Assembly: GCA_963921795.1 (NCBI GenBank)
Contig: OY997653.1
Coordinates: forward strand, 1,766,001-1,830,000
From: Nannobrachium achirus
Lineage: Eukaryota > Chordata > Actinopteri > Myctophiformes > Myctophidae
Reading direction: 5' to 3'
DNA length: 64,000 bases
Below the pieces are notes generated by a model. The model was not told where the DNA came from, searched no databases, and saw only the letters and a list, made by a program, of their open reading frames with translations. Position numbers and translations under genes: made by a program. This document shows positions 31,837 through 41,095 of the stretch, piece by piece. Each line of letters begins with the position of its first letter. Positions within the stretch are counted from its first letter, which is position 1.

Positions 31837-31938
31837 TCAGATGACGGGGTTGAGGGCGTCGTAGAGACGCTGCACGGCCACCTCCACCATCTCCCTGAGA
31901 GACTCGTCATCAGCACTGCCTTCCTCGTACTCCACCGT
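31837..31938 (-). CDS. CPSF3 terminal exon, distal duplicate
   Basis: Minus-strand 102-bp exon, 33 codons plus TGA, preceded by a good acceptor (tgtgtttgcag). It encodes [20 protein letters not shown] and continues [13 protein letters not shown], matching the known C-terminal end of CPSF3. Compared with the copy at 40994-41095 there is one amino-acid change (EVAVQ against ELAVQ); vertebrate CPSF3 has L there, so this is the derived copy. Frame, stop and acceptor are intact. It lies 9.1 kb downstream of the proximal copy in the CPSF3 direction, so it could serve as an alternative last exon, or be an unused passenger of the TRIM duplication. Confidence 0.85.
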
Positions 31939-32527
31939 CTGCAAACACACCATCATCATCACCATTTAGGCCTAGAATTATTGAACGCTTTAACAGGTGA
32001 AAAATAGCAGATATACAGCATTTCAGCTGCAGTACCACCTTTGGCCTGAACTGCGCCACCCCCCCCCCCCCCCACCCCAAAAAATAAGTTTTTATTTCTT
32101 TTTTGATGATGACGTCACAATCGGCAGATGACGTCACAATCGGCAGCAAATCTGGATAGCCTGTTTTGAGAACCCGTGGGATACTTTTAACCTTCGCCTT
32201 CTCAAAACCAGAGAAAGACACAACGGACTTTGTGAGGATATAAGGTGCTAGTGGTACCCCAAAAAAAGGTTTTAAAATAGGAAAAGTGAAATTTCATGGT
32301 GTATCACCTTTAAAGCATATGTATTTTTTGTATTATTTCACTCTATAGTAAAGTCTATGAGAGCCCAACTTTAGACAAATCTGCGATGCCCCAAAGCCAA
32401 AATTTTTCCATATGGCATGTTCTAACTGTGTGCCAAATTTCATGCTTCTTTCATAAAGTGCACGATTACATCAAAATACTGCCCGAAACGCCTGGACTAT
32501 TTTTTATATTACCACTTGAACCCTAAC

Positions 32528-33485
32528 GTCCATATTCTGAGAACCTTTAGCCAAAAATAGCAGATCTACAAGCTCACCTCGCCTCGCATAGATCGGCTAT
32601 TTTTTGCAAAGAGGTTTGGTGTAGAGGGGAAAAAGAGCAGACTAAGTACAGAGTGAAAGGTCAAGTTTATTAAGTATTGACGGTTCAAGTGGTTAAATAT
32701 GTGGAACCACAAATTGACATGAATACAATTAAAATACACTGATGATTGTGCTGTCAAACAATAAATCTATATGGAATCTGGGGGTCCTAGCCAGGCGGCT
32801 TCGTGATATAATCGTTCACTTTGTGATACAAGTGCCAAATTTTGCACAAAGTTTCCTCTGGACCTACTTTTTCCGAAAAGCAAGTTAGCCACTCAATTAA
32901 AAACAAATAGGGTTGGGGTCCCATTGACTTTCTATACAGTAAAATAATACAACAAAATAAATCTGCTTTAAGTAGCAAGTGAGGGGTCAAACTAGGGGTT
33001 TTTCATGAGCCTGAATCCAATGCAAGCGTTTGTTTTGCACGAAAAACATTCCTTGGGCTAGAAAGGCCCCCACGAAAGCGTGAAAACCACGGTGAAAAGT
33101 GATGACTCATGACTAAACCATAGTTTGTGGTAGCCTTTTCTAGCCCGATGAATGTTTTTTGTGCAAAGCACATGCTTACAATGGATTCAGCACCATGAAA
33201 AACCCCTAGTTTGACCCCTCACATGCTATTTGAAGCGGATTTGTATTCTTTTACTGTATAGAAAGTCAATGGGACCCCAACCCAATTTGTTTTTAATTGA
33301 GTGGCTAACTTGCTTTCTGAACAAGTAGGTCCTAGCCTAGGCATTGTTCATGCCAAATGTGTTGCTTGTAGCCTATCACAAAGTGAACGATTCTATCAAT
33401 AAATTGACTTGGGGCCGCTTGACTATCCCTGCTTCATCTCTCTCTCAGCTGAGGGGTCCTTGGCCTGAAAACGTTGAAGACCCCT
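32528..33485. mobile_element. hAT-like element split by a foldback
   Basis: Its two parts (32528-32780 and about 33427-33485, ending 'aaaacgttgaagacccctgg') correspond to one continuous element at 59828-60249. It carries a hairpin module at about 32552-32607. Confidence 0.65.
32780..33440. mobile_element. Foldback element, about 660 bp
   Basis: Imperfect inverted arms of over 200 bp: for example 'gcaagttagccactcaatta' at about 32880 pairs with the complement near 33295, and 'ggggtcaaactaggggtttt' pairs with 'aaaaacccctagtttgaccc'. Inserted into the hAT-like element above. Confidence 0.75.
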
Positions 33486-33636
33486 GGCTGGCCTAGACTA
33501 GAGTATAGCCTAGGTCTCATCATTCAACAGACCAGGCTCAGCTGACACCCACGGGTGAGTCCACTCAGGGCAATCAGCGAGGGGAAACAGACTGAACTCT
33601 ATCCAAGACAAAAGTAATGGGCCAGTGAAGTGGTAG

Positions 33637-33852
33637 AGAACAATTCAAATAGGAGAGTGGAATGAGACAGACAGTCAGAGACTAGTGGAGGATGTGAAGG
33701 GTTAACAACTAACTACAGTACAAGGAGGAGTTTCTCAGTGACGCATATCTAGTGAAATGAAAGTTAAACTGTGAAACGAAGGCAGCGCTCACAACAAGCT
33801 CTAGGCTACAAATACATTAATCAAACACAGCTTTTAGGAACACAGTGAAAAG
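33637..33852 (+). promoter_or_regulatory. TRIM-2 promoter and 5' non-coding exon
   Basis: Counterpart of 25178-25401, with the same GAAATGAAAGTT IRF-like site and the same donor (gtgaaaag|GTGAGT, exon end 33852). It shares 'actagtggaggatgtgaagg' and 'gctcacaacaagctct'. Confidence 0.6.
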
Positions 33853-39130: not shown

Positions 39131-40282
39131 TTGCTTCCAATTCCCCATTTTATTGTACTTGTACTTTATTCTGATAGTAATCATTGCTGTAGTGGGAGTC
39201 TCCCCATCTCTATAATGAAGAGGAAAATACATTTTATGTTAAAGAGCTGGAGAGACTGGGAAACTTCTGTTAGTGATGACTATAAGAATATAGAGCTATT
39301 TAACTTATTTCAACAAAAGAAATGTCACGTATGCTACATTTAAATGACTGTTTTGTTACATATAACAGAGAAATTCTGTATGTATATTATATTTTCAACA
39401 CACTTGCTTTTCCTTACAGCCAGCGAGTCACAATCACAAATATTAACTAACAGTTCTAATAATAACTGGAGTTATAGTTAATATACGCAACATAACAAAA
39501 CCACTTCCTGGAGGAGACACAATGGACAGTCAAAAAATATTTATTTCACTGTAAAGGAATTCATTTAACAATTATATTCATTTTATAGAAAACAAGAAAA
39601 GTACAAAAACAAAACTGGTGTGAAATATCAATATCAACCGAGAATGATTCCTTTGGAATCATGTTCTAAACAAAGACTCCCGATCTTTGTTTTCCTAAGG
39701 CAACAGATTCACAAAATGGATGTTTTTATGGGTTTGTGTGTCAGATTGTGTAAATGTTAATGAAGCATTATGATGTCACATTATACTCACATGTTAATGA
39801 AGCATTATGATGTCATTATACTCACATGTTAATGAAGCATTATGATGTCATTATAATCACATCCTACACTTTACATCCCCAAATCTACACCTTTAACATG
39901 TCAAGACCTGAGGGAGATTCTACCAATCATCTGTCGAATCTATAAAACTCGTACTTTTCGGGATTTAAATTCAAAAGTAACAGATCGACAAGCTCGAAAC
40001 GCATTGTTTTGCGCAGCGTTTCGCGCGTGTAGATCTGCTACTTTTGTGTGACACTGTCGTATGATCAAGGGTTAAAGGCCAGTACATGCTCCTTTCCGAC
40101 ATTCAAACTTTTTCTTCTGACAGGGAGGTGATGTGTAACCACAAGTTGATGTCATTCCGAACTTCTGACAGTCAGTCTGTCCAAAACTGGTGATTTTTGG
40201 ACAGACTTCTTCCTCCGTCGGGGCAGAAATCGCTACGTTTTTTCTTTCGTAAATTAACGCCCTACTTGATCATACTACAGCG

Positions 40283-40732
40283 TAGGGGTGGGCGATATGG
40301 AAAAAGACAATATCACAATATTTCCCCAAGCTGTATCACGATACATGATTTTATCACGATTTTGTTTTTTATGGTTATTTTTCAAGTTATTCGACAAAAA
40401 CTAGACTCTCTGGGTTCCTTTTGGGAGGTCTAAATTGAACTTTACAAGTATGTAACTCTGACAGTATACAAATGAGGGTCCATTTGGTTCCATTTTAATA
40501 CTGTCAGAGTTAAGTGGAGAACCTTGACATTTTAAAGTTTGAGAACCACTGATTTAGACCAAAATGCAGGTTTAAATTGAATTCTGCAATGAATCTCTGT
40601 ATTAACGATTAAACAGGATTTCTTACAAGGCTCCCTCAATTGTATCACGATATATAGGATACCTCTGAAAAGGCATATCGTGGAGACATTGTATCGTCTC
40701 AAAGATAATTATCACCATATCGCCCACCCCTA
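40283..40732. mobile_element. hAT-like MITE, 450 bp, duplicate
   Basis: Same element and same CTACAGCG target duplication as 31126-31575. Confidence 0.92.
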
Positions 40733-40993
40733 CTACAGCGTCGCACAAAAACATTAAAAGTAGCAAAAGCATCAAGCTCAAGCTTGTTGATCTGCTACTT
40801 TTGAATTTGAATCCTCAAAAGTTAACAATTTTGGAAATAAAGAGGATTCCACCCGACCAGAGATGATGCATTGTGGTCTTTATGAGCTCAAATAGAAAAG
40901 GTAGGGGGAAGAAAGCTCTCCGTCTCTCGTTTCCGGGTCTGAATGAGGCTGTGATGGCGGGAGGAGGAGCCAGAGGGGGCGTGTCTGGTCCAA

Positions 40994-41095
40994 TCAGATG
41001 ACGGGGTTGAGGGCGTCGTAGAGACGCTGCACGGCCAACTCCACCATCTCCCTGAGAGACTCGTCATCAGCGCTGCCTTCCTCGTACTCCACCGT
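40994..41095 (-). CDS. cpsf3: CPSF3 terminal exon, proximal copy
   Basis: 102-bp exon with acceptor tgtgtttgcag and TGA at 40996-40994. Phase 0 join to the AGA codon ending exon 55871-55775. It keeps the vertebrate-like [13 protein letters not shown], so it is the likely ancestral copy in use. Confidence 0.9.

Follow-up and report, generated by a model that had tools for sequence, protein, structure and literature searches.

The terminal exon of a CPSF3-like gene in Nannobrachium achirus occurs in two copies with an intact TRIM gene antisense between them

A CPSF3-like gene in the genome of Nannobrachium achirus is accompanied by a second copy of its last coding exon, and this distal copy sits within a tandem segmental duplication together with a TRIM gene. 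The proximal copy (exon 18A, 33 codons plus stop) lies at 40994-41095 and the distal one (exon 18B, likewise 33 codons plus stop) at 31837-31938, both on the minus strand of the analyzed 64,000-nucleotide stretch (the window, positions 1766001-1830000 of contig C16, with no N), in which all coordinates without a contig prefix are given. The joint explanation that we consider probable is a tandem duplication with a later recopying of the terminal exon, 18A being the default and 18B a probably silent or rarely used spare.

The genome searched was a 1.66-Gb assembly of 564 contigs, in which exon reconstruction placed the 18 exons of the CPSF3-like gene at C16:1854877 to 1806994 on the minus strand. 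Exons 13-18 fall in the window and exons 1-12 beyond it. All 17 introns are GT-AG, the phases are consistent, and the frame is open over a product of 690 residues, so the gene is intact. Residues 10-689 of this product align with human CPSF3 (CPSF73; PDB 6v4x, E 0), and the beta-CASP exons of CPSF3 were located in the genome with PF10996; the homology is full length and includes the metallo-beta-lactamase, beta-CASP, and C-terminal regions. The penultimate exon, exon 17, is found at 55775-55871 on the minus strand and joins the last exon in phase 0, with exons 13-16 lying beyond it, up to 60914, on the same strand. One interspersed repeat recurs in the introns of the gene (41119-41577, 46472-46887, 48498-48972, 52505-52803, 54880-55244, and 61052-61613).

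The initial annotation had reported two minus-strand copies of the terminal exon, both downstream of the penultimate exon and differing by one residue (L to V), and all of this was borne out. The second copy has its own acceptor and stop, as has the first, and lies on the same strand as exon 17 and downstream of it, which is the anatomy of a tandem terminal-exon duplication. Only 2 of the 102 bases differ: at 31881/41038, where 18B has GTG and 18A has TTG (V versus L), and at 31915/41072, where the change from AGT in 18B to AGC in 18A is synonymous. A chance match is excluded, since a 256-base query comprising the exon and the early 3' UTR, run against the whole genome, hit three places only, namely 18A (100%), 18B (98%), and a paralogue on contig C20 (82%). 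It had also been claimed that both copies are followed by the same 3' UTR-like sequence and AATAAA. Both elements are indeed present after each copy, but the AATAAA is distal, at 39540-39545 for 18A (1448 nt past the stop) and at 30387-30392 for 18B (1444 nt past the stop), on the minus strand in both cases. The nearest of the eight hexamers scanned is a CATAAA, 109 nt beyond the stop in both 18A and 18B. Within the same window, tandem repeat arrays were observed at 15074-15509 (period ~37 bp) and 8867-9131.

The description of the locus as an essential single-copy gene does not hold, because the genome has another complete CPSF3 gene besides the one on C16. The second, at C20:24372418-24341732, is intact, with 18 exons and 692 residues; its exon lengths equal those of the C16 gene except in exon 1, and the two proteins are 87% identical. 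A tree of 50 rows, made up of the two genes and 48 of the best 120 listed relatives (of 7963 found), groups the C16 gene with a clade of fish "CPSF3-like" proteins and assigns the C20 gene to the main clade of CPSF3. The window gene, with its homology to human CPSF3 over residues 10-689, is thus accompanied by a second, main-clade CPSF3 on C20. Since rows from Oreochromis, Mastacembelus, Tetraodon, Takifugu, and Mugilogobius fall in both clades, the CPSF3/CPSF3-like pair is old and shared. By its protein relatives, those of CPSF3 as well as those of TRIM, the genome belongs among the fishes, probably the acanthomorphs. Support is low for the fork uniting the C16 gene with its clade (94/56 in the 50-row tree and 93/87 in a tree with 23 of the 120 relatives), and a tree with the C16 gene inside Centroberyx is not rejected (p-AU 0.157).

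At the variable residue, the 116 readable sequences among the best 120 of the 7963 relatives have L in 81, V in 18, Q in 8, I in 3, H and M in 2 each, and T and S in 1 each, these rows including isoforms and related species that are not independent. The 19 tree rows grouping with the C16 gene have V in 15 and I in 3, with 1 unreadable, so that 18 of 18 readable rows have V or I; the C16 gene itself falls outside these 19 rows, though the p-AU given above would also allow it to fall inside them. The V of 18B is thus the usual residue of the relatives of the C16 gene, and most main-clade CPSF3 rows share the L of 18A. Polarizing the two changes with the C20 paralogue alone (AGC and CTG at the two codons) would assign both to 18B; the part concerning the residue was dropped, given the V or I of the clade rows. 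As the position is tolerant, no strong effect of the exchange is expected, and on sequence grounds the L/V difference is no clear lesion.

For the use of the two exons, their order along the transcript and their acceptors are the main evidence. The 47 bases preceding 18A and 18B are identical, and their acceptors are therefore equal. The intron leading to 18A is 14679 bp long versus 23836 bp for the one leading to 18B, so that 18A precedes 18B by 9.2 kb. As the two exons share acceptor and hexamers, this order makes 18A the likely default: being met first by the transcript, it would act as the normal last exon and end the message, while 18B would be a recently copied, intact spare downstream of it, probably silent or rarely used. 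Two facts run counter to a silent spare, namely that 18B is intact and that its V is the residue of most relatives of the C16 gene.

The main alternative, which we regard as unlikely, is that the two exons really serve as alternative ends of the gene, some transcripts skipping 18A and its poly(A) site, crossing the antisense TRIM gene and ending at 18B, which implies two 3' ends for nearly the same protein. Such use would fit with two intact exons whose acceptors are identical over 47 bp, and the similar duplicate in oyster AOX is expressed (PMC5589949). It would also fit with the acceptor of 18A, which has 9 pyrimidines in 20 positions, the poorest of the 17 acceptors of the gene (10-17 in the others) and well short of the 17/20 in the C20 paralogue; being pyrimidine-poor, 18A may leak toward 18B. 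However, the lead of 18A at equal acceptors and hexamers speaks against this alternative, and recent copying explains the high identity without any selection on 18B. An extension of the same idea concerns the interspersed repeat at 41119-41577, which matches up to position -24 of the 18A acceptor and the last 56 bp of which also precede 18B. It is conceivable, though we give it little credence, that this mobile element just upstream has made the 18A acceptor leaky, that some CPSF3-like transcripts read through the antisense TRIM gene to 18B, that TRIM transcription could thereby adjust the 3' end of an enzyme that itself processes 3' ends, and that gene conversion keeps both last exons functional.

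The favored explanation, a spare exon arising by duplication, has its firmest ground in the anatomy of the region. Two direct-repeat units, each consisting of a TRIM gene, a spacer, and an exon block, are found at 27.0-32.0 kb and 35.8-41.2 kb, and this shows that a stretch comprising a TRIM gene, the spacer, and the end of the CPSF3-like gene was duplicated in tandem. The TRIM and spacer parts have diverged by about 7-10% between the units. A spacer block (block C) lies at 37605-38564 in unit 2 and at 28805-29789 in unit 1 (89% identity to unit 2), and a third copy at 22986-23947 is ~89% identical to both others; no TRIM match and no exon match was found beside this third copy. In the 194 kb scanned, these are the three copies of the block, each of them inside the window. 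The flanks of the units share short repeat-like pieces only, the longest having 265 bp (33631-33895, 80% like 25177-25439). Since the unit flanks differ, a genuine tandem duplication fits better than a split haplotype. That two haplotypes of one locus were set in tandem by the assembly is accordingly very improbable: the exon tract, 99% similar, has about the similarity that two alleles could show, but the window is free of N, the TRIM genes, spacers, and flanks are far more different or share short repeat-like pieces only, and the third spacer copy is about equally distant from both others.

Inside this older duplication lies a much more similar tract, 99% identical from ~80 bp before the exon through the distal AATAAA. 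Copy A, at 39536-41174 on the minus strand, comprises the exon, the 3' UTR, and the last 56 bp of the upstream repeat, and copy B is found at 30383-32017 on the same strand, with a maximum-likelihood change point as its left edge and the end of homology as its right one. Counted in unit 1 from 28701, 159 of 1600 sites differ to the left of 30383 versus 10 of 1602 to the right of it, up to 31985 (Fisher p 1.4e-37), where the left count is raised by two windows of poor alignment (44 and 27 differences in 150 sites; summing the eight others, 28685-30266, gives 83 of 1200) and the right count excludes the last 32 bp to 32017, with five more mismatches. Over 30380-32017 as a whole, the copies differ by three indels and by mismatches at 16 of 1637 sites. 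The support interval of the change point is 30239-30433. Homology carries on beyond the tract at the TRIM side and stops at 32017/41174 on the other. Such a high-identity tract with a sharp edge within a diverged duplication is the pattern taken to indicate gene conversion, and the identity step argues that the terminal exon and the 3' UTR were later copied again from one unit to the other, with conversion as the simplest route. Because homology ends where the tract does on its right, the data fit the conversion of an older copy of the exon and the fresh insertion of one equally well. The tract also holds a dispersed repeat of ~450 bp (40283-40733 in A, and present in B too), for which 40 of 3939 candidates were scored, 38 of these lying elsewhere, with 89-92% identity. 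We consider it highly unlikely that purifying selection rather than copying has kept the two terminal exons and 3' UTRs alike. The interval of the left edge does include the distal AATAAA at 30392, which makes the tract roughly the whole terminal exon, but the dispersed repeat is no less conserved between A and B than its surroundings; selection on a 3' UTR would hardly achieve this, whereas recent copying accounts for it simply.

The TRIM genes of the two units show a comparable pattern. TRIM-2, at 35839-37434 on the plus strand, has an intact frame with RING, B-box, coiled-coil, and PRY-SPRY regions, running from an ATG at 35839 to 37434, and its antisense position between 18A and 18B agrees with what had been annotated. 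TRIM-1, at 27082-28692 on the plus strand, is an intact paralogue in the downstream unit. Both proteins score over the cut-off for zf-RING, zf-B_box, TRIM_CC, PRY, and SPRY, and thus belong to the TRIM family. The pair is a mosaic (27470-28219/36221-36970), in which the coiled-coil part is near-identical, with a run of 254 identical bp at 27723-27976/36474-36727, while the RING/B-box and PRY-SPRY parts have clearly diverged. There are 0 synonymous differences in 89 synonymous sites in the coiled-coil part versus synonymous distances of 0.20 and 0.13 in the other two. Because this mosaic resembles the exon tract, patchy conversion across the unit is likely. Between 18B and TRIM-2, there is, in addition, a long self-complementary palindrome at 32860-33332 (81% over 487 aligned columns).

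Overall, the duplicated last exon of the CPSF3-like gene is real and ordinary in kind, and 18B looks usable. Among the titles listed by literature searches, none concerned a duplicated CPSF3 terminal exon. The locus is a clean case of a last exon observed shortly after its duplication, and the same genome has an undivided paralogue of CPSF3, so that one can ask directly if an additional terminal exon goes into use immediately or remains silent. Were 18B used, the transcription of the TRIM gene would be tied to the 3' end of a polyadenylation enzyme; as things stand, no view of CPSF3 is altered.

Terminal-exon duplications are known from other systems, and the unusual detail compared with these is the intact TRIM gene antisense between both exons. 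In the oyster AOX gene, a tandem duplication comprises the terminal exon 10 and part of the 3' UTR and gives two expressed forms (PMC5589949). Like the CPSF3-like gene, oyster AOX has tandem last coding exons with partial 3' UTR, both with stops, on an otherwise single gene body. However, both of its forms are expressed and its exons, with a similarity of 63.5% in C. virginica, are old (PMC5589949), whereas the exons described here are 98% identical and have a TRIM gene between them. A second case is the Y-linked kl-2 of the Drosophila simulans clade, which has duplicated terminal exons with expression varying between species (PMC8794474). As in the CPSF3-like gene, extra copies of 3' exons lie beside the gene, but in kl-2 they involve several exons in many copies on a Y chromosome (PMC8794474), whereas the CPSF3-like gene has one extra copy of one exon on a large contig.
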